Positions 50,306-63,516 of a stretch of DNA of 64,000 nucleotides are shown piece after piece; positions within the stretch are counted from its first letter, which is position 1; each line of letters opens with the position of its first letter. The translations under genes and the position numbers were made by a program. Under the pieces are notes generated by a model. That model was not told where the DNA came from, searched no databases, and saw only the letters and a list, made by a program, of their open reading frames with translations. Origin of the DNA: Elusimicrobia bacterium RIFOXYA2_FULL_47_53 (GTDB lineage: Bacteria; Elusimicrobiota; Endomicrobiia; Endomicrobiales; XYA2-FULL-47-53); NCBI GenBank assembly GCA_001800315.1, contig MGVE01000020.1:62001-126000 (forward strand), in the 5' to 3' direction.

Positions 50306-51082
50306 ATGAACCACTACAACAGTCTTCAAATCCGCGAAATATTCCATGTAGAATTTCTCCGTTGGTTTTCACGAAAATTTAAGCCCGAGGTCTATGCGTT
50401 AAAGGGTGGGGTTAATATTCGTCTTTTCTTCAAAAGTAGGAGATATTCGGAAGACATGGACCTGGATGTTAAATCGGTAAGTGTAGTAACGCTAAGGGAT
50501 TCTGTCATGAAAATACTGACATCCCCGGTATTCGCGAAAGACCTGAAACCTTACGGTATTGAAGAAGTGCAACCGCCTGACATTACCAAGGCAAAACAGA
50601 CAGGTACTACTCAAAGGTTCAAGCTTCACCTCATTACCCAGAACAATGAAGATCTCTTCACGAAAATTGAATTTTCAAGAAGAGAGGGAAAGGGTATCTC
50701 AATAGTTGAATCAATTCCTGACACTGTTTTGCGTCCATACAAAACTTCGCCGTTCGTAATTAGCCATTACGATGTTAATACCGCAGTTTCGCAGAAGATT
50801 GGGGCGCTGGCCGGCCGCAGTGTAGTCCAGGCAAGAGATATCTTTGACCTATATACATTATCAACCCAGTATGAATCATCAAATAGTAAAAAAGCGTTAA
50901 ATGACCAAAACACCATTGATAAAGCCGTTGATAATTTGTTTTCGGTTGATTTTAATCAGTTTAGAGACACAGTTGTTGCATATTTGACCGATGAAGATAG
51001 ATCTGTGTACAACAGTCCTGAAACCTGGGACGAGATTAAGTTAAAAGTGAGCGAACTAATATGCCAGAAAAAGCCCCGTTAA
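50306..51082 (+). CDS. AbiEii-type nucleotidyltransferase toxin
   Basis: The motif LKGGVNIRLFFKSRRYSEDMDLDV carries the GG..(N)..R and S.D.D signature of AbiEii/AbiGii nucleotidyltransferases. These are toxins of type IV toxin-antitoxin systems that modify tRNA with nucleotides and act in abortive phage infection. The 258-residue length fits. The start follows AAAAGGA. It overlaps the AbiEi-like gene by 22 bases. The gene order is toxin first, the reverse of the usual AbiEi-AbiEii order. Confidence 0.85.
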   Translation: MNHYNSLQIREIFHVEFLRWFSRKFKPEVYALKGGVNIRLFFKSRRYSEDMDLDVKSVSVVTLRDSVMKILTSPVFAKDLKPYGIEEVQPPDITKAKQTGTTQRFKLHLITQNNEDLFTKIEFSRREGKGISIVESIPDTVLRPYKTSPFVISHYDVNTAVSQKIGALAGRSVVQARDIFDLYTLSTQYESSNSKKALNDQNTIDKAVDNLFSVDFNQFRDTVVAYLTDEDRSVYNSPETWDEIKLKVSELICQKKPR

Positions 51083-51693
51083 TCACATATATAAAAAAAA
51101 CAAACAACCCCATATTTACAACCCGCGAGCTATCCTATATTTCGCATAAATCGGTTTCTGCGGTTACTCAGGCCTTGAATACCCTTGAAAGGCAAGGCGT
51201 TGTAGATAAATTATATAGAGGAATATGGTCCGAGAAAACTCATAAGCCAGTCAGTCCATACATGCTTGTGCCGCATCTTATAAAATCTAGCAGGATATAT
51301 GTATCGTTTTTGAGCGCCTTGCATTTACATGGAATTATAGAGCAAATACCTCAGACGATTACACTGGCAGCCACTACGCATACAAAAAAAATACAAACAA
51401 AGCTTGCAACCTTTCAAATACACCAGATATCTCCGGATTATTTATTTGGATTTGACTGGTATAAAGAATCAGGCAGTTTTCTTATAGCGGAACCCGAGAA
51501 AGCCTTTGCGGATTGCCTCTATTTATTCACAAAAAAGAAAAAACAATACGGATACTTCCCGGAGCTCAATCTTTCAAAACCCTTTGATATTAAGAAAGCC
51601 GAGTCATATATTCTAAAAATTCATGATAGTAGAGCAAGAGCGCTTGCCCTGAAAAGGTTTAAAGAAATTATTGAATTGAAGGTCTTGAAATAA
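51061..51693 (+). CDS. AbiEi-family antitoxin/regulator
   Basis: The N-terminus is a winged-helix DNA-binding domain (FTTRELSYISHKSVSAVTQALNTLERQGVVDKLYRGIW). The C-terminal part is the AbiEi-like domain (YVSFLSALHLHGIIEQIPQTITLA and AEPEKAFADCLYLF). In this family the partner silences the nucleotidyltransferase and represses the operon by binding inverted repeats, two of which precede the operon. The overlap with the upstream toxin gene suggests translational coupling. Confidence 0.85.
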   Translation: MPEKAPLITYIKKTNNPIFTTRELSYISHKSVSAVTQALNTLERQGVVDKLYRGIWSEKTHKPVSPYMLVPHLIKSSRIYVSFLSALHLHGIIEQIPQTITLAATTHTKKIQTKLATFQIHQISPDYLFGFDWYKESGSFLIAEPEKAFADCLYLFTKKKKQYGYFPELNLSKPFDIKKAESYILKIHDSRARALALKRFKEIIELKVLK

Positions 51694-51940
51694 GGCTATA
51701 TTCTTTTATAGTATCTTGACAAATACGATTGTATAATTAATTGTACATACGAATAATATATTATACAAATGTGTGTAATATTATCTGCAGCGAATTAAAT
51801 AAATGTCTCGTTTATACCTGTCGTTCCTAAAAGTGCTGTAAATCAGACCGTACCATTTTGCATTGTACTGCAAATTGGTACTGATTATTGTTTTATGTTG
51901 ATTTCCAGCTCTTGGCGTACTCTAAAACATCATATTTAAC
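51694..51940. other. A/T-rich spacer with an operator-like inverted repeat
   Basis: TTGTATAAT (51729-51737) is answered by ATTATACAA (51760-51768), a perfect nine-base inverted repeat close to the end of the AbiEi-like gene. There is no gene in this spacer. It may be a weak bidirectional terminator or an abandoned operator. Confidence 0.4.
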
Positions 51941-51990
51941 TTGCAATGACATTGCAATATAAGTATAATAATACAGCAATGGCGTTGCAA
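51941..51990 (+). promoter_or_regulatory. Promoter and palindromic operators of the DUF4143 ATPase gene
   Basis: TTGCAA (51941) and TATAAT (51964-51969) are 17 bases apart. The palindrome TTGCAAT-GAC-ATTGCAA (51941-51957) covers the -35 and spacer. A variant, CAGCAATGGCGTTGCAA (51974-51990), lies just downstream of the -10, 33 bases from the first. This is the same plan as the orphan promoter at 50085. Confidence 0.6.
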
Positions 51991-52009
51991 GGCATATAAG
52001 GGAAAGAAA

Positions 52010-53281
52010 ATGAATAAAGAACTATTGTTGCAGGTAATCAAAGACCAGAGAAAAGTATCATTGATTGAAAACATGGTCAAACGCGAAAAGCTCAAAGATA
52101 TAGAAAGATACAAGAAGACAAAGCATATAGTGGTTATAAGCGGCTTACGGCGCTGCGGTAAATCCACATTACTTGATCAAGTAAGAAGCTCCGAAAAACA
52201 GCGTGACTATTACATTAATTTTGACGATGACAGGCTTATTGATTTTCAAGTAGCGGATTTTCAAATGATGTTTGAAGTGTTCATAGAGCAGTTCGGTGAG
52301 CAGGATATATTCTATTTTGATGAAATACAAAATATAAAAGGGTGGGAACGGTTTGTCCGTAGGCTATATGATAGTGGCAAAAAAGTGTATGTTACCGGCT
52401 CAAATGCTTCCATGCTGAGCAGGGAACTTGGAACACATTTAACAGGAAGGTATGCTCAAGTTGAGCTTTACCCTTTCTCATTCGGAGAGTTCCTGCATTT
52501 TCATAAACTACCCTATAATCTAAAGCAGGGGCTCAGCAGTTCCGAAAGAAGTGTTATTAAAAAGAATTTCTTATTGTATTCTAATACCGGCGGGATCCCC
52601 GAATATGTAAGCACTGGACAAGTAGATTATATCAAGATGTTGTTTGACAATATTATCTACAGGGACATTTTTGCGCGATACCATGTTTCAAACGAGAAGC
52701 AATTCAGAGAAATGGTGTATTTTGTAGCAAGCAATATAGGAAAGGACATAAGCTTTGTTTCAATAAAAAATATGGTGGGTCTCGGAAGCTCCAATACAGT
52801 GCGGGAATACCTCCACTATCTTGAAAACTCATATTTGATATTTTTGGTAACAAAGTATGAAAGATCGGTAAAGAAGCAGCTGTACGGTAACAAGAAAGCG
52901 TACATGGTTGATAATGCTCTGGCAAAATTGGTGGGTTTTAGATATGAGGACGAAAAAAGCAGAATGCTGGAAAATACCGTGTTTATTGAATTGAAGCGCC
53001 GCGGAAAGGAAATATATTTTTTTAGAAATAACAGAGAATGCGATTTTTTGATTAAACAAGAGAATAATATAGTGGAAGCCATCCAGGTATGCTTTGTTTT
53101 GCGTGACGAGCAGACAAAGGAAAGAGAAGTTGAAGGCCTGATAGAAGCAATGCAAGACTGTTCTCTAACAACAGGGACCATTCTGACTAATGACGAAGAA
53201 GATACGCTGACAGTTAAACGGGATAAAACATATCAGATAAAAATACAACCGGTCTGGAAATGGCTGCTGAAAACCACTTAA
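52010..53281 (+). CDS. AAA ATPase with DUF4143 domain
   Basis: Walker A reads GLRRCGKST, Walker B DIFYFDEIQ and sensor VTGSNASML. The DUF4143 C-terminal part has SSNTVREYLHYLENSYLIF and a nuclease-like ECDFLI...EAIQVCF ending. This family (423 residues, normal) is widespread, often horizontally moved, and of unknown role; links to defence or toxin-antitoxin loci are suspected. The start follows AAGGGAAAG. Its promoter carries two palindromes. It is A/T-rich compared with the genes before 50,000. Confidence 0.9.
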   Translation: MNKELLLQVIKDQRKVSLIENMVKREKLKDIERYKKTKHIVVISGLRRCGKSTLLDQVRSSEKQRDYYINFDDDRLIDFQVADFQMMFEVFIEQFGEQDIFYFDEIQNIKGWERFVRRLYDSGKKVYVTGSNASMLSRELGTHLTGRYAQVELYPFSFGEFLHFHKLPYNLKQGLSSSERSVIKKNFLLYSNTGGIPEYVSTGQVDYIKMLFDNIIYRDIFARYHVSNEKQFREMVYFVASNIGKDISFVSIKNMVGLGSSNTVREYLHYLENSYLIFLVTKYERSVKKQLYGNKKAYMVDNALAKLVGFRYEDEKSRMLENTVFIELKRRGKEIYFFRNNRECDFLIKQENNIVEAIQVCFVLRDEQTKEREVEGLIEAMQDCSLTTGTILTNDEEDTLTVKRDKTYQIKIQPVWKWLLKTT

Positions 53282-53617
53282 TGTCAAAAATTAATGTGCA
53301 ACTAGGCTATGGCCTTCCACCATGTTATGTACCAGTGTTAGGTAGAGTCATTAGTGCCAATTTTTTCAACTTACAAGTGGTTTAGTTTTTGGGGGCAGGT
53401 CACATTCATATAGGACATTTTACTGTGACATACTGCGACTTCGTTCCCTTGAGAAATACTTTTTTAAAAGATAAAATAAACAAGTAATGCAGAATACAGT
53501 TTCTGTGTAAAAGGTGAAAAAAGTGACCTGGGGTGAAATAATTCAATTCAACAAGTGAACCATTCTGCGCAGTAAGGACAGGGTGGTTTTTTTGATTTAT
53601 TATAAGGATGGTAAAAC
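53282..53617. other. Non-coding spacer with inverted-repeat-bounded stretch
   Basis: CAGGTCAC (53396-53403) is repeated inverted as GTGACCTG (53523-53530), bounding about 135 bases without a gene. G-runs next to these ends resemble the palindromes mobilised by IS200/REP-associated transposases. Otherwise I see nothing in it. Confidence 0.4.
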
Positions 53618-53965
53618 ATGAGCGAAATCAATGTCATGATAACCAAAATTAGGAAATTTCGTGATGAACGTGACTGGATGCAGTTTCATGACCCAAAGAA
53701 CATGGCAATTTCAATAATTTTAGAGGCCTCAGAGTTACTTGAGCATTTTCAATGGAAAGCAAAACAGGAAGTTGAGGAATATGTAAAAGCTAATAAAGGG
53801 CAAATTCAAGATGAAATAGCTGATATCGCCATGTATTTGTTTGAGTTGGCAGATAATATGGGGATTGACCTGATCAAAGCAATGGATAAAAAACTAAAGA
53901 AGAACTCTACAAAATACCCAGTTCACAAAGCTAAAGGTAAACATACTAAATACAACAAATTATGA
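53618..53965 (+). CDS. MazG-like nucleotide pyrophosphohydrolase
   Basis: The 115-residue all-alpha protein has the NTP-pyrophosphatase motifs EASELLEHFQW and DEIADIAMYLFELADNMGID, whose acidic residues bind magnesium. It most resembles the dCTPase/RS21-C6 branch. Such enzymes remove nucleoside triphosphates, often modified ones. The stop overlaps the start of the next gene as ATGA, so the two are translationally coupled. The start follows AAGGATG. Confidence 0.85.
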   Translation: MSEINVMITKIRKFRDERDWMQFHDPKNMAISIILEASELLEHFQWKAKQEVEEYVKANKGQIQDEIADIAMYLFELADNMGIDLIKAMDKKLKKNSTKYPVHKAKGKHTKYNKL

Positions 53966-55074
53966 CCCCTTTTGACTTAACTCCATCATTAACCACCAAA
54001 GGCTTTTTCCGGTTTACCGGCCCTCCGGAACATTGGCTAACAGCAGTAAAATATATGACTTGGGGTTTAGAAGAAAAACATAGGAAGGGTTGGGAAAGAA
54101 TACGGTCGGGAGATGTTTTCTTTATTCATAGTACACATAACTCATTTTTCAATAATGCCAAATCCGGTATTATTGGTATTGGTGTGGTTGGTTCAAATTT
54201 TTCTATTAAGAACAATCATTTGTGGCTTTATGAACATCAACATCACGAGAATAGGTGGCCTCTTTTAGTGCCTCTGTCGGAAATATATTTATTTAGTCAG
54301 TTGCCAGATACTTCCAGTTGGGAATCACCAAATATTGATAACAAAAGCCAAAGTGAAAAACTAATAAGCCAATTACTAAAAAACTATATACCGCTTTCAA
54401 ATGTAAAAGGATTCCCTCAAATGGGAAGCTTCTCTGCAGTTTCAAAAGAAGTTGCAAACCAGATTCTTTTTGATAAACGGCCATTGTATGAGTATAGCGA
54501 TGAATCAAGCATAGAAGGCGACATTGAAGCATTAAGGCCAACCAAACTTGAAAAGGTCAATAATATTTCGGAATCCTTTAGATATGCCGATACCTTAAAG
54601 GTGTTTGATAGTATTAAACAACGAATAGTAAGCGAAACTCCCGGTTTATATAGTAAAAATAATGAATTATTGGCAAAAGCTGAAGAGGCTCATTGTAATA
54701 TACTTCAGCAATTACTCGAGATATTTAAGCAAAAAGGTTATGATGTCAGAAGTAATCCCCATGTTGACCTTTTTGCACATGATGGTAGTAGGGCATTCCT
54801 TATAGAAGTAAAAAGTACTGAAAACAGAAATTTCCGTACACAAGCAAGAAAAGGTCTTGCCCAGCTTCTTGAATATGATTATTTTGAAGTAAACAGATTT
54901 GTAAGTGAAGAAAATTTACATTTAAAAGATAAATATAGAATACTCGTACCATCGCAATCACCAAAAGATAATAACTACATAGAATTTCTAAATAATTTAA
55001 ATATTGGCGTGGGAATCGTAAATAGGGATGTTATTAAGCCTGTAGGGGAAGATTTCGGATTTTCTAAGTTATAA
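53962..55074 (+). CDS. EVE-like domain fused to PD-(D/E)XK nuclease
   Basis: The first 165 residues read like an EVE/PUA-type domain ([48 protein letters not shown]). Such domains recognise modified bases and are found in modification-dependent restriction. A helical linker follows. The C-terminal part (about 265-345) has [21 protein letters not shown], a D-x(n)-ExK nuclease core, then a helix with [14 protein letters not shown]. It would cut nucleic acid carrying particular bases. It is coupled to the MazG-like gene and followed 31 bases on by a helicase-nuclease gene. The EVE call is from motif shape only. Confidence 0.65.
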
Positions 55075-55105
55075 ATACTACTTTAGCCAAACTTCAAGGA
55101 ATAAC

Positions 55106-57082
55106 ATGTCAAGAGCATATTACACTGATTCCATCGCAAATTTTATTAAGGCTAAATCCGAAGAGATAATCGGAAAGCTGACAATGAGCAATGTTTTTAA
55201 TTTAGAACAATCCCAGCGCGATGCCTGGGTTGAGGAAATTGCAATATTGCAATCCGTGCTTACCGAACATACAGGGTCGGTCTATTTTGAATACTCGATC
55301 CCCAGGATGGGGAAAAGGATTGATGTAGTATTGCTCATTGGACCGGTAATCTTTGTGCTTGAATTTAAAATCGGAGAGCATGTATTCACCTCATATGCTA
55401 CCGATCAGGTTTGGGACTATGCTTTAGATTTGAAGAATTTTCATGAAACGAGCCACAACGTATATATTTCACCAATTTTAATTGCATCTAAGGCAAAAAC
55501 TGGTGAATACATGGCAGTGGCGACACCACACAACGACAAAATCCTCGTTCCGATCAAGATTAATACGGAGCAGCTTGGGGAGGCAATTAATGGTGTTTTG
55601 CGTTTTGCCAAAGGTGATGTAATAGACAATGCTAATTGGGAAAGTGGTAGGTATTGCCCTACGCCGACAATTATAGAGGCAGCTATGGCTCTATATAATA
55701 GCCATTCCGTAGCAGATATATCTCGTAGCGATGCAAGCGCAATTAATCTAAGTCAAACATCCGATGCAATTTCGAAAATTATTCACATGTCTAAAGAAAA
55801 AAGTCAAAAATCAATTTGTTTTGTAACAGGTGTTCCGGGCGCCGGCAAAACACTGGTTGGGCTTAATATCGCAACAACACATTTTGATAAAACAAATGAA
55901 TTGTATAGTGTTTATTTGTCAGGGAATGGACCTCTTGTTGCTATCTTGCGCGAAGCGTTGGCTCGCGATAAGGTACGTCGTTCAAAAGATAAAGGTGATA
56001 AATGCAAGAAAGGTGAAGCAATGAGTGAGGTTAAGATGTTTGTTCAAAATGTTCATCATTTTCGTGATGAATGCTTGATCGATCCGAAAGCTCCTCCAGT
56101 AGAGCATGTTGCATTATTTGATGAAGCACAGCGGGCCTGGAATAAAGAGCAAACTGTTAATTTCATGCGACGAAAGAAAAATACGCCCAATTTTGACAGT
56201 TCCGAGCCTGAGTTTCTGATATCATGTCTCAATCGTCATCTCGATTGGGCAGTCATAGTATGCCTTGTGGGTGGTGGACAGGAGATTAATACCGGTGAAG
56301 CAGGTATAATTGAGTGGATTGATTCGTTGAACCGATCATTCCCGGATTGGCACGTATATATATCTTCGCGGCTTAATGATAGTGAGTATGGAGCAGCTGA
56401 GGTAATAAATAAATTGAAATCACGTATAAATGTTGTAGACAATAAAGCTTTACACCTTTCAGTTTCGATGCGTTCATTTCGTACCGAACATGTCTCTCTA
56501 CTAGTCAAGCAATTACTTGATCGTAACGCTGACGATGCACGACAGACACTTAAAAATGTCGAAAATAAATATCCAATAGTTATCACACGCAATCTTTCAA
56601 CAGCGAAAAGCTGGTTAAAGTCTCAAGCGCGTGGATCTGAACGATATGGTATAGTAGCTTCTTCTCAGGCAGAAAGATTGAAGCCACAAGCTATTAATGT
56701 AAAATCTCCGATGGATCCAATTCATTGGTTTCTTGATGGCAAGGAAGATGTAAGATCATCGTACTATTTAGAAGATGTTGCCACGGAATTCCATATTCAA
56801 GGACTTGAACTTGATTGGGCCTGTGTAGCGTGGGACGCCGACTTCAGATATACTGCCGCTGGTTGGGAGCATAGATCATTTTGCGGTGATAGTTGGAATC
56901 ATATTAGGAAAAGCGAACGCAAAACATATCTCCATAATGCCTACCGAGTGCTTCTTACACGTGCCAGGCAAGGTATGGTGATCGTTGTACCATCCGGAGA
57001 TGAAAATGACCCAACGCGCAACCCCAAATATTACGACCCAACATTTGAGTATTTAAAGGAAATAGGGTTCAAAATAATTTAG
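55106..57082 (+). CDS. Nuclease-DUF2075 helicase fusion
   Basis: The N-terminal 190 residues contain a PD-(D/E)XK-like core ([11 protein letters not shown]...[11 protein letters not shown]). The rest is a DUF2075-type P-loop helicase/ATPase with Walker [15 protein letters not shown] and Walker [13 protein letters not shown] later SVSMRSFR segment and the superfamily-1-like end [19 protein letters not shown] follow. DUF2075 proteins are repeatedly seen in defence contexts. The start follows AAGGAA. With the preceding two genes it forms a compact operon that reads like a restriction-type module. Confidence 0.82.
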
Positions 57083-57262
57083 CTTATAAAACTGCTGAAT
57101 TTGGACTTGAGATGCAAATTTACGCAAAACAGCTACGATTGAGTTAGAATAATTCCAAAAGCTAGTCAGTATGAGGCTTGCAAAACTTTTGGCTTTAACT
57201 ATTAAATAAATGAGGCATTAGAATTTCGTCTATTAAGTTATTGCGTATAATAACTGTTAGGT
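57083..57262. other. Spacer ending in an integron-type cassette junction (GTTAGGT)
   Basis: GTTAGGT (57256-57262) fits the GTTRRRY recombination triplet and lies 12 bases before the next gene. No complete attC or attI can be folded upstream; only a CCAAAAG/CTTTTGG hairpin near 57152-57192 is visible. Confidence 0.4.
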
Positions 57263-57274
57263 GGTGAAAATAAA

Positions 57275-58723
57275 ATGAAAATAAGCAAAATATTTAGACT
57301 AAATAAAACTCAGTTAGAACTTGATTTTATTGATATTGATTTAGGGAAGGATATCCCCCTTTTTATTGACCCTTATTACCTAGGTAAAAGAGTTGATTTA
57401 TGGTCAATTAATGCTAATCGTACCGTTAGAGACTTCTTTCAAACATTCATAGATCAAGTCAGAGCCGGAAACCATGTGCAGGCAAAGGAATTATTTCTTT
57501 ATTTGCATGAACCAAATGAAACTCGATTGGGATTATCTAGAAAGGAACCTATGGGTAAAGGCATAGGGACTATAGATGCAGAAAAGATTTTTAAAAGTTT
57601 ATCTCAAAGCAAGGCAGTTAAAACAGGTTTGATTCAAGATATAGAAGATTGTAGAATCTTTATAGAAGGAATAGACAGAGATAAAGTTTCAGATATGACT
57701 ACAAACATTATTAAGCAACATCTTATAGAGTATACGCAATCGCAATGTAAGCTTTGGGGTATTCCATTAACATCTAATATACAGTCAGGTGATTTTTGGG
57801 ATAAAGTAACTCATTCATGGGACAATATACTTACAGATATGTTAGTAGTTAGAGGTGAAAAAATATTATTGGTTCCAAAGAGTGTTGTTTCTTTTAAAAC
57901 AGACTATACACCACAACAATATTATCGTCATTTTGTTTTAAACTTTTTACAAAATGAACATTTAAGATTGCATACCCATTTAGTGCAAAAGCATGAATAT
58001 AAAAATGGAGAGACTAGAGAATTTGTAACAAAAAAAAGCATCATGGAAAGAGATTCTCCATATTCAAAAGAATTTGTTATTTCTTTTACGCAAAAGCATC
58101 CTGAAATATTTAGGAATTTTAAGAAAAACCCTACAATTAAATTGAAACCTCATAAAACGCTTTATACTTCCGAACCAAAACTAGTTGAAATAATTGACCA
58201 CTTAGTTAAAGAATTAAAAAATATTCCTTCTGGTCCGGAAAATGCAACAAAATATCATAGAGCAATCACGGGAATACTTGAATTAATATTTCATCCTCAA
58301 TTAACAAGTCCTCAAATTGAGAAAGAAATTAACGACGGAAGAAAAAGAATTGATATAACATTTGACAATGCGGCTACTTTTGGTTTTTTTCATTACCTTC
58401 CAACCACGCATGGAATAACTTCTATATTCATTTTAGTAGAGTGTAAAAACTATTCAAGAGACATAAATAATCCAGAATTAGACCAGATGGCAGGAAGATT
58501 TTCTCCTAATAGAGGTAAGTTTGGTTTTGTTGTGTGCAGGAAGATAGATAATTTAAAATTGTTTATTCAAGGGTGTAATGATACTTATAAAGAAAACCGA
58601 GGAGTAATAATCCCTCTTGTAGATGATGATTTAATAAATATTTTAGAAAACATAAAAAATGGAGTTGCGGGCTTTGCTGAAAATCTCATTAAGGATAGAT
58701 TTCGAGAAATAGCAATAAACTAA
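57275..58723 (+). CDS. Putative PD-(D/E)XK nuclease carried as a cassette gene
   Basis: The N-terminal half (FIDPYYLGKRVDLW) is unassigned. The C-terminal part has GRKRIDITFDN and, after a loop, IFILVECKNYSRDINNPELDQMAGRFSPNRGKFGFVVCR. This is the D-x(n)-ExK core followed by a Gln-bearing helix, as in Mrr-like and other restriction nucleases. The gene is markedly A/T-rich. Its ribosome site AGGTGGTG partly overlaps the cassette junction GTTAGGT, and an attC follows its stop by one base. A phage-defence role is likely but inferred. Confidence 0.65.
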   Translation: MKISKIFRLNKTQLELDFIDIDLGKDIPLFIDPYYLGKRVDLWSINANRTVRDFFQTFIDQVRAGNHVQAKELFLYLHEPNETRLGLSRKEPMGKGIGTIDAEKIFKSLSQSKAVKTGLIQDIEDCRIFIEGIDRDKVSDMTTNIIKQHLIEYTQSQCKLWGIPLTSNIQSGDFWDKVTHSWDNILTDMLVVRGEKILLVPKSVVSFKTDYTPQQYYRHFVLNFLQNEHLRLHTHLVQKHEYKNGETREFVTKKSIMERDSPYSKEFVISFTQKHPEIFRNFKKNPTIKLKPHKTLYTSEPKLVEIIDHLVKELKNIPSGPENATKYHRAITGILELIFHPQLTSPQIEKEINDGRKRIDITFDNAATFGFFHYLPTTHGITSIFILVECKNYSRDINNPELDQMAGRFSPNRGKFGFVVCRKIDNLKLFIQGCNDTYKENRGVIIPLVDDDLINILENIKNGVAGFAENLIKDRFREIAIN

Positions 58724-58724
58724 A

Positions 58725-58782
58725 TATCAACAAAGCGCTCCAGCCTACCGCGTACCGCGGTAGCGGAGCTTGAATGTTAGAT
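58725..58782 (+). other. attC site 1
   Basis: This 58-base imperfect palindrome begins ..CAAC and ends GTTAGAT (GTTRRRY). The arms GCTCCAGCCTACCGCG and CGCGGTAGCGGAGC are nearly complementary. It matches the known attC layout R''-L''-L'-R'. Confidence 0.75.
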
Positions 58783-58924
58783 TGAGTCTATAGCTATATT
58801 GGGGCGTTGGTCTGTTGTCTTTAAAGCTGTTTTTTATTTTTTTATTCGTATTGATGATTATATCAACAATACTAAAATAAGGGGACACAATACTAATTAA
58901 TTTTAATAAAACGATTACAACGAC
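58783..58924. other. ORF-less integron cassette
   Basis: About 140 A/T-rich bases lie between attC 1 and attC 2 without a forward frame. A reverse frame (58745-58960) crosses both attC sites and encodes a hydrophobic peptide, but it is probably chance. Such cassettes sometimes carry promoters or small RNAs. Confidence 0.45.
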
Positions 58925-58984
58925 ATCTAACAAGTCAATCCAGCTGACCGTGCTCCGCACGGCAGCTGATTTCGGATGTTATGC
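58925..58984 (+). other. attC site 2
   Basis: It runs from ATCTAAC to GTTATGC with the stem CAGCTGACCGTGC / GCACGGCAGCTG. Extrahelical bases occur on one arm only, as expected. The GTTATGC end is also found in Vibrio repeats. Confidence 0.8.
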
Positions 58985-59018
58985 CCGCAAATAATTGGAT
59001 ATTACAACGAGCAATAGA

Positions 59019-59675
59019 ATGAAATGCATTTCGCTGGTTTGTACGGTACATGAAGAGAATGGCCTCGCGAATGTCTCGGGATTGTACGCAATCCTGGAGC
59101 GAATTCAGCCGGAAGTTATTTTTATCGAGGCCCTTCCTGATGCGCTCGATCAATTCCTTGCCGCTTGCACCAACAACAAGCTGGAATCAGCCGCAGTAAG
59201 GCGATATCGCGAGAACAGCATCGTTGAACTCGTTCCGGTTGATCTTCCAACGCCGAAAAGCCGCTTCTTTAGCGACTATAGATACTTGCAAGAGATGATT
59301 GAAGGTAAGAGCCCGGCTTCCCGACGCTTGATAATGTGGAATAAAAATTACGTGCGCGACCACGGATTCGCCTATCTGAATAGCGAACATTGCAGCAAAA
59401 TGTGGACCGAGATTTATGCGGACGAACGTGCTGTAATTGTGAAAATTAAGGACCAACGACTTACTGAAATTTCCGAAATATGGAATAAAACAATAGAGTT
59501 GCGTGAAAATGAGATGATGAAAAACATCCTGAAGTATTGCGACGAAAATTCGTTCGAACGGGGTGTATTTCTTATTGGTGCTGCGCACAGGCAGTCCATC
59601 ATCGAAAAAACGAAAGAGTGGTCTGAGAAATATCCGAACCTCATTCAGTGGGATTTTACTTGTGGAAAAAATTGA
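59019..59675 (+). CDS. TraB/GumN (TIKI)-like cassette protein, unknown role
   Basis: The ATG at 59019 is preferred to a TTG eight codons earlier. The sequence has a start like LVCTVHEENGLANVSGLYAILERIQPEVIFIE and an ending FLIGAAHRQSIIEK. Together these resemble the His/Glu-bearing strands of the TraB/GumN/TIKI superfamily of putative metal-dependent hydrolases. It occupies one integron cassette between attC 2 and attC 3. No other function can be read. The family call is tentative. Confidence 0.55.
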   Translation: MKCISLVCTVHEENGLANVSGLYAILERIQPEVIFIEALPDALDQFLAACTNNKLESAAVRRYRENSIVELVPVDLPTPKSRFFSDYRYLQEMIEGKSPASRRLIMWNKNYVRDHGFAYLNSEHCSKMWTEIYADERAVIVKIKDQRLTEISEIWNKTIELRENEMMKNILKYCDENSFERGVFLIGAAHRQSIIEKTKEWSEKYPNLIQWDFTCGKN

Positions 59676-59690
59676 ATAAATGAAAGGCGG

Positions 59691-59748
59691 TCATAACAAG
59701 GCGCTTCAGCTGACCGCGGTCCGCGGCAGTTGAGCTTAGGTGTTAGCA
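59691..59748 (+). other. attC site 3
   Basis: TCATAAC...GTTAGCA with arms CAGCTGACCGCGG / CCGCGGCAGTTG. The L box AAGGCGCTT faces AGCTTAGGT. It is the closest of the three to a textbook attC. Confidence 0.8.
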
Positions 59749-59758
59749 CTTCAATAAA

Positions 59759-59992
59759 ATGAAAACAACCGCATTGAACCAACTATTTGACAAATGGATA
59801 CTGACTTATCCAGACCACGACTATGGATTTCATCGGGATGGGATTATCCTTGAAGACCAGTTCAATAAGGAGCGCCACCGAATCCTGTTCGTAATGAAAG
59901 AGCCTAATAGCAGTGATGGGGCATTCAATCACTTCATAGGTATGGACCTGCGGGAGTTGTTTGGACAGAAACTGCACAATAAAACTCATTGA
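59759..59992 (+). pseudogene. Truncated cassette protein (77 residues)
   Basis: The frame starts 11 bases after attC 3. It reads like the N-terminal part of a larger cassette protein (WILTYPDHDYGFHRDG, RILFVMKEPNSSDGAFN, DLRELFGQ). The frame ends where a repeat (GAACGGTGCCTGGC) begins at 59991, so the remainder seems to have been cut off by insertion of the following repeat-bounded block. No closing attC is found. Confidence 0.5.
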
Positions 59993-60029
59993 ACGGTGCC
60001 TGGCTTCACTAACTTCACTAAAAATAAAT
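59991..60029 (+). repeat. Direct repeat, copy 1 (GGTGCC-GGCTTCACTAACTTCACT)
   Basis: GAACGGTGCCTGGC followed by TTCACTAACTTCACTAAAAA. A near-identical copy at 61362-61411 closes a 1.4-kb block with the MBL and cupin genes. Similar GGTGCCTGGC motifs accompany IS200/REP-type transposases, which is background knowledge. Confidence 0.6.
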
Positions 60030-61356: not shown

Positions 61357-61361
61357 GTTTC

Positions 61362-61411
61362 GGCGCCAGGCTTCACTAACTTCACTAAAAATAAAGTGAA
61401 CGGTGCCAGGC
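61362..61411 (+). repeat. Direct repeat, copy 2
   Basis: GGCGCCAGGCTTCACTAACTT..., then a second GAACGGTGCCAGGC at 61398-61411. It is a near-duplicate of 59991-60029 and marks the right end of the inserted-looking block. Confidence 0.6.
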
Positions 61412-61506
61412 ATGACTTATGTGACTTATTAAAATAGCAGGTTGGGGTCTTGCAATACGACAAGCGTGGTTCGTGGTCAGCACCGTACTCAAAAATAGGG
61501 GGATAA

Positions 61507-62817: not shown

Positions 62818-63052
62818 TTGAGTGTTCCTTGGTGATAATCGTTGATTTTTACCCCTCGTTTAGGTATAATACCACAAGAGGACAGGAAAACCACATTCGA
62901 TAAATGTTCGATGTGTATGGTGAAATAGGCTCATTTTTTGGCTTTTCAGGAGTTGTCAGGAAATAGCACAATTAGCAGGTGCTTTTTTAATTTACCGACG
63001 ACATAATTGTAAATAAATACTTTAAGACGGCAATGCGCCCATAGCGAAACTA
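62818..63052. other. Spacer, no gene; partial tRNA-like direct repeat at 63032-63045
   Basis: Fourteen bases AATGCGCCCATAGC at 63032-63045 are identical to 63153-63166, the 5' edge of the tRNA-Arg gene. No coding frame or promoter could be supported otherwise. Confidence 0.5.
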
Positions 63053-63112: not shown

Positions 63113-63155
63113 AAATATAGAAACCTGAACTCACAAAATAGAAAGCAAATTTAAT

Positions 63156-63229
63156 GCGCCCATAGCTCAACTGGATAGAGCGTTTGACTACGAATCAAAA
63201 GGCTAGAGGTTCAACTCCTCTTGGGCGCG
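63156..63229 (+). tRNA. tRNA-Arg (anticodon ACG)
   Basis: The 7-bp acceptor stem GCGCCCA/TGGGCGC is complete. The D arm is GCTC/GAGC and the anticodon stem TTTGA/TCAAA encloses the loop CTACGAA (anticodon ACG). The T arm is AGAGG/CCTCT with TTCAACT in its loop. The discriminator is G and CCA is not encoded. The ACG anticodon needs A-to-I editing by TadA, whose gene starts 320 bases downstream. Confidence 0.95.
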
Positions 63230-63230
63230 T

Positions 63231-63516
63231 GTATTTAACAAAACCACCTCCAATTCTACTGCAAAACAAAAATTTGGGTTACGCCTTCGTCAAACTCACC
63301 TTATGTAGCTTTGCTACACTGCGGTTCGTCATCCTTGGCTCACTCCAAATCTTTGTTTTTCGTTACGAATAGAGGTGGCTTTGTTAAATACCTTTGAAAA
63401 ACAAAGCATTAGAGACGGGTTAGGTGGGGAAGTACAATTTGAAAGTCAAAAACGGAGTTATGTTTTTCGCTACGAATAGAGGTGGTTTTGTTAAATACCT
63501 TTGAAATGCAAAGTCA
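63231..63516. repeat. Inverted repeat with a duplicated right half
   Basis: GTATTTAACAAAACCACCTC (63231-63250) is found inverted at 63372-63391 and again at 63479-63498. The two right-hand copies (63355-63410 and 63462-63516) are near-identical direct repeats 107 bases apart. It looks like a non-coding palindromic element with a tandem partial duplication next to a tRNA gene. Confidence 0.65.

Follow-up and report, generated by a model that had tools for sequence, protein, structure and literature searches.

Toward the right end of the window (64,000 bases; bases 62001–126000 of the 280,603-base contig C20) we find a cassette array that has kept the insertion site of an integron (attI) and three attC sites in a genome in which no integron integrase gene (intI) is found; we assign a probability of about 0.75 to the explanation that this array is a degraded chromosomal integron of this order from which intI has been lost. 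The source genome comprises 2.41 Mb in 20 contigs, and its estimated completeness is 100%. The features are listed below in window coordinates; R1 is a covariance model built from five attC sites of G003, a genome of the same order with a full integron, and the fold z-scores compare bottom strands with dinucleotide shuffles.

55106–57082, + strand: Schlafen group 3 helicase gene (PDC-S41), left of attI, where intI would be expected.
57240–57259, + strand: attI core, ATTGCGTATAATAACTGTTA; it shares 19 of 20 bases with the attI that adjoins intI in G003.
57257–58776, + strand: cassette A (1520 bp), between attI and attC A.
57275–58723, + strand: gene of cassette A, 482 aa (PDC-M36A, phrog_27295, C-terminal D...ExK motif).
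58724–58782, + strand: attC A; R1 28.8 bits, E = 9.7e-4 in the whole genome; fold z −3.7.
58777–58978, + strand: cassette B (202 bp), with no ORF of at least 60 aa on its own strand.
58925–58984, + strand: attC B; R1 61.4 bits, E = 4e-13; fold z −4.3.
58979–59742, + strand: cassette C (764 bp), with G|TT boundaries.
59019–59675, + strand: gene of cassette C, 218 aa, with a relative on a Paraburkholderia plasmid.
59691–59748, + strand: attC C; R1 34.9 bits, E = 1.7e-5; fold z −2.0.
59743–59993, + strand: start of a fourth cassette, with an ORF at 59759–59992 (77 aa); it lacks its own attC and apparently ends prematurely at the repeat.
59994–60028, + strand: 35-nt dispersed repeat D2, which begins CGGTGCC[TA]GGC and forms the right edge of the array.

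The three attC sites lie within 1.03 kb (contig coordinates 120724–120782, 120925–120984, and 121691–121748 for A, B, and C, respectively), and a simple fold scan of the claimed stretch also detects three attC-type inverted repeats on the + strand. We used R1 in place of the attC model of IntegronFinder and, because circularity was to be avoided, built it only from the attC sites of another genome. When the entire 2.41-Mb genome is searched with R1, exactly three matches are obtained at E ≤ 1, that is, attC A, attC B, and attC C, and nothing else; all three share one strand, as they should if they represent the bottom strand of cassettes that are read on the + strand. The bottom strands of attC A and attC B fold better than their shuffles; attC C is marginal and is weak on folding alone. 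The hairpin pairs covary over 39 sites (those of the window and of relatives as well as two Syntrophaceae loci), with a score of 0.343 vs 0.137 for shuffles and at most 0.110 for controls in which the partner was slid; the alignment is biased toward the model, to which it was fitted, but the slid controls are nonetheless far lower. The R1 matches, the folding, and the covariation all point to attC hairpins with R and L boxes. In addition, attC B is up to 82% identical to attC sites of genomes in the same order. Rfam contains no attC-like family and gave only chance matches at the locus.

The cassettes are delimited by G|TT boundaries at 57256/57257, 58776/58777, 58978/58979, and 59742/59743. 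A cassette that was once circular should begin with bases that agree with the outer box of its attC. The start of cassette B (GTTAGAT) agrees in 7 of 7 positions with the complement of ATCTAAC in its attC, and that of cassette C (GTTATGC) agrees in 6 of 7 positions with the complement of TCATAAC; the start of cassette A matches the outer box of its attC in only 3 of 7 positions, so two cassettes may have been fused in cassette A. A fold z-score of only −2.0 for the third site could be taken to mean that the inverted repeats are chance hairpins; however, the genome-wide search with an independent model recovers no others, the three are consecutive, on one strand, and spaced by cassette lengths, and the outer boxes agree with the cassette starts in two of the three, so that this explanation is contradicted by the present data and is practically untenable. 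The three attC sites with cassette spacing and orientation that were described in an initial annotation, made from the letters of the window, are thus borne out by R1, the covariation, and the G|TT boundaries.

The left edge of the array is an attI core, with the crossover between G57256 and T57257. The 16-mer CGTATAATAACTGTTA (57244–57259) occurs once in the genome, at this edge; G003 has two copies, both of which head an attC array. When 59 genomes were searched for it with one mismatch allowed, exact matches were found only here and at the two positions in G003. The chance expectation for the 16-mer in the window is 0.01 matches even with two mismatches. In G003 the sequence at the crossover between intI and the first cassette is ATTACGTATAATAACTGTTA; the attI site expected of a complete integron is present in the window, identical over the 16-mer and located at the crossover. 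A related sequence, CGGATAGTAATTGTTA, adjoins intI in the same-order genome G004; in G001, a genome of the same family, AATAACTGTTA is found ~130 bp before the first attC, which is weak evidence. Because its left edge is the attI core, the stretch is the head (attI end) of an array and not, as the initial annotation had offered as one option, the tail of a larger array; the genome contains no other attC of the R1 type. Both the attI core and the start of the fourth cassette had escaped that first reading.

In a complete integron intI is adjacent to attI; here, the Schlafen helicase gene occupies that place instead. No integron integrase is found in the genome: the best match to TIGR02249 scores 82 bits vs a cut-off of 265, and the matches are only Xer-like tyrosine recombinases, all far below the cut-off, that lack the IntI-specific insert present in the proteins of G003, G004, G115, and others. 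Searches (tblastn) with the integrases of relatives gave nothing near the array, and no remnant of intI was found. Contig 16 carries an integrase-like fragment of 41 aa (L006), which we considered and rejected as a remnant of intI; it contains only the general C-terminal recombinase box, lacks the marks of IntI, and is located on that other contig between two Fic-like genes. Because the array is well inside its 280-kb contig, the missing intI is not an artifact of a contig end. The earlier remark that no integrase is visible therefore extends, by TIGR02249 and the check for the IntI-specific insert, to the entire genome; the search for intI and attI that accompanied it has now been performed, and it located no intI anywhere in the genome and the attI core at the left edge of the array. 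The helicase gene is the last member of a run of defense-type genes to the left of the array (50306–57082: AbiEii, AbiEi, PDC-S01 ATPase, MazG-like, a 370-aa protein, and the Schlafen group 3 helicase, PDC-S41).

A CALIN is defined as at least two attC sites with no integrase (PMC9024848, PMC9668308). With three attC sites and no intI in the genome, the array is a CALIN by definition, as the initial annotation had proposed as its other option. It resembles the IntegronFinder class in its closely spaced attC sites (two or more) and in the absence of intI from the genome; it differs in that a recognizable attI core, which the definition does not require, is located at its head. The complete integron on contig C8 of G003 is alike in its attI core (identical over 16 bp), in attC sites of the B type (~78% identical), and in having single-gene cassettes that are read in one direction; however, the G003 integron encodes a full IntI and contains at least 12 attC sites, whereas here there are three attC sites and no IntI. 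In Xanthomonas, the retention of arrays after the loss or inactivation of intI is documented (PMC12444791). There, as here, the cassette array outlives the integrase, although Xanthomonas belongs to another phylum, and here no remnant of intI is seen and the neighboring gene is different.

The array is in a genome that the initial annotation judged not to be proteobacterial, and a tree of RpoB agrees: the phylum of the genome is separated from the gammaproteobacterial, deltaproteobacterial, and Nitrospirota references with support of 100/100, and its RpoB is 47% identical (BLAST) to that of E. coli; because the reference set is small, the tree says ‘not Proteobacteria’ and no more. No 16S gene was found in the genome. 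Other observations concern the RNA genes of the region: a tmRNA gene (L033 138–600; tag peptide ANENLALAA) is located just to the right of the window; ~120 bp upstream of the tRNA-Arg(ACG) gene, its 5′ end is nearly duplicated over 20 nt (63032–63051 and 63153–63172 in the window); and inverted repeats of 41–47 nt directly follow the tRNA-Arg(ACG) gene on its right (63231–63498).

Integrons were reported to occur in 14 phyla in a 2021 review (PMC8618304). We surveyed 149 relatives with the IntI model and 198 genomes with R1: the IntI model matches six relatives at E ≤ 1e-30, five relatives (including two of the same order) score above the curated cut-off, and R1 attC matches were found in eight genomes, including the source genome and G001. 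The description of the lineage as unexpected is therefore correct in that integrons are sparse (5/149 over the cut-off); it is not correct in that full intI genes with attC arrays are present in two genomes of the same order as well as in others of the phylum, that is, integrons are not foreign to the lineage. In G003, intI begins within ~170 bp of the attI crossover on contig C8, and a second attC array on contig 11 is headed by the same attI (L079 9617–9632), with 75% identity between the two over ~180 bp upstream; no intI was found beside the contig 11 array in the 16 kb examined, and the contig C8 integrase could serve it in trans. G001, which represents a sister genus, contains on contig 34 (L062 6261–9043) an array whose genes include those for a chorismate mutase, an ORF6N protein, and a methyltransferase; R1 matches three attC sites there, a further two attC-like sites were identified by eye, and no intI was found. 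The IntI of G003 shares 60% identity with an IntI encoded in a Syntrophaceae genome and 52% with that of G004; these values, together with an IntI tree in which the phylum is not resolved as one clade, are consistent with horizontal transfer of intI. In the G003 array, two cassettes encode the same 191-aa YdeI/OmdA-like protein (L023 10804–11379 and 14850–15425).

The protein encoded by cassette A has a full-length match to PHROG 27295 (2e-98), and residues 1–227 match the PADLOC candidate family PDC-M36A (1e-41). A three-way alignment shows conservation of D360, E389, and K391; this D...ExK motif is consistent with a PD-(D/E)XK nuclease fold and makes the protein a candidate PD-(D/E)XK-like anti-phage protein. 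Distant relatives are encoded by plasmids of cyanobacteria, Rhodococcus, and others. The protein of cassette C belongs to no family in Pfam, NCBIfam, PADLOC, or PHROG; its best plasmid relative, on the Paraburkholderia plasmid, is 42% identical. Searches for relatives on viral contigs (proteins of cassettes A and C), for relatives in phage records (protein of cassette A), and for the DNA of cassettes B and C in plasmids were all negative. A promoter scan gave no more promoter-like sites than shuffles did and so does not support a cassette promoter. To the right of attC C there are no R1 matches, and the fourth gene has no plasmid relatives, so the evidence for its truncation is the missing attC and the D2 repeat; further copies of D2 are located at 61361–61395 (94%) and 61401–61435 (66%).

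Off-target insertion, loss of intI, and rearrangement are the three origins of CALINs that are proposed by Cury et al., as cited in the review (PMC8618304). The attI core favors loss of intI, or a rearrangement that took attI along, over random off-target insertion. If the cassettes had been inserted off-target or in trans, an integrase encoded elsewhere (in a past state of the genome or by an incoming element) would have used an attI-like chromosomal site, and intI would never have been adjacent. No remnant of intI is found beside the array, the attI-headed array on contig 11 of G003 is without a local intI and could be served in trans by that genome, and the upstream region of attI has no homology with that of G003 past ~20 bp (alignment score 45 vs a shuffled maximum of 69), so the array may have been inserted into an attI-like secondary site; however, a random secondary site would be very unlikely to show an exact match of 16 bp to an attI of the same order, at the precise crossover and nowhere else in the genome, and we consider this origin quite improbable. 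We likewise give little credence to the transfer of the array as a unit (attI, cassettes, and neighboring defense genes) by transposition or rearrangement that left intI behind. The defense-type genes directly to the left (AbiEi/AbiEii, PDC-S01, and PDC-S41) and the repeat at the right edge would fit such a transfer, but no transposase or recombinase is found among the proteins scanned around the array.

For the favored explanation, loss of intI from a chromosomal integron, we infer the order of events, the past activity of the array, and the loss of an intI that was formerly adjacent (rather than insertion in trans) from the arrangement of these features. An integrase would have captured the cassettes singly, by recombination between the folded bottom strand of the attC of a cassette and double-stranded attI, with the crossover at 57256/57257; capture at attI would place newer cassettes to the left. 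Later, intI would have been deleted or replaced, leaving the Schlafen helicase gene beside attI, and the right end would have been cut off inside the fourth cassette at the dispersed repeat. What is left would be attI, three cassettes with their attC sites, and one fragment; the cassettes would now be fixed unless an integrase comes from outside.

The attI-headed arrays without a local intI (in the window, on contig 11 of G003, and perhaps in G001) may be more than decayed integrons, that is, they may be stable and filled in trans from other replicons or cells, and the phylum may be one without reported integrons; this idea is speculative, and we regard it as unlikely. The array in the window adds a clear case of an integron in a non-proteobacterial group that has kept its insertion site and lost its integrase. 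Because relatives in the same order keep the integrase, the origin of integrase-less arrays is testable in this lineage. The array also shows a candidate defense gene carried as a cassette in a group other than the well-studied Proteobacteria.
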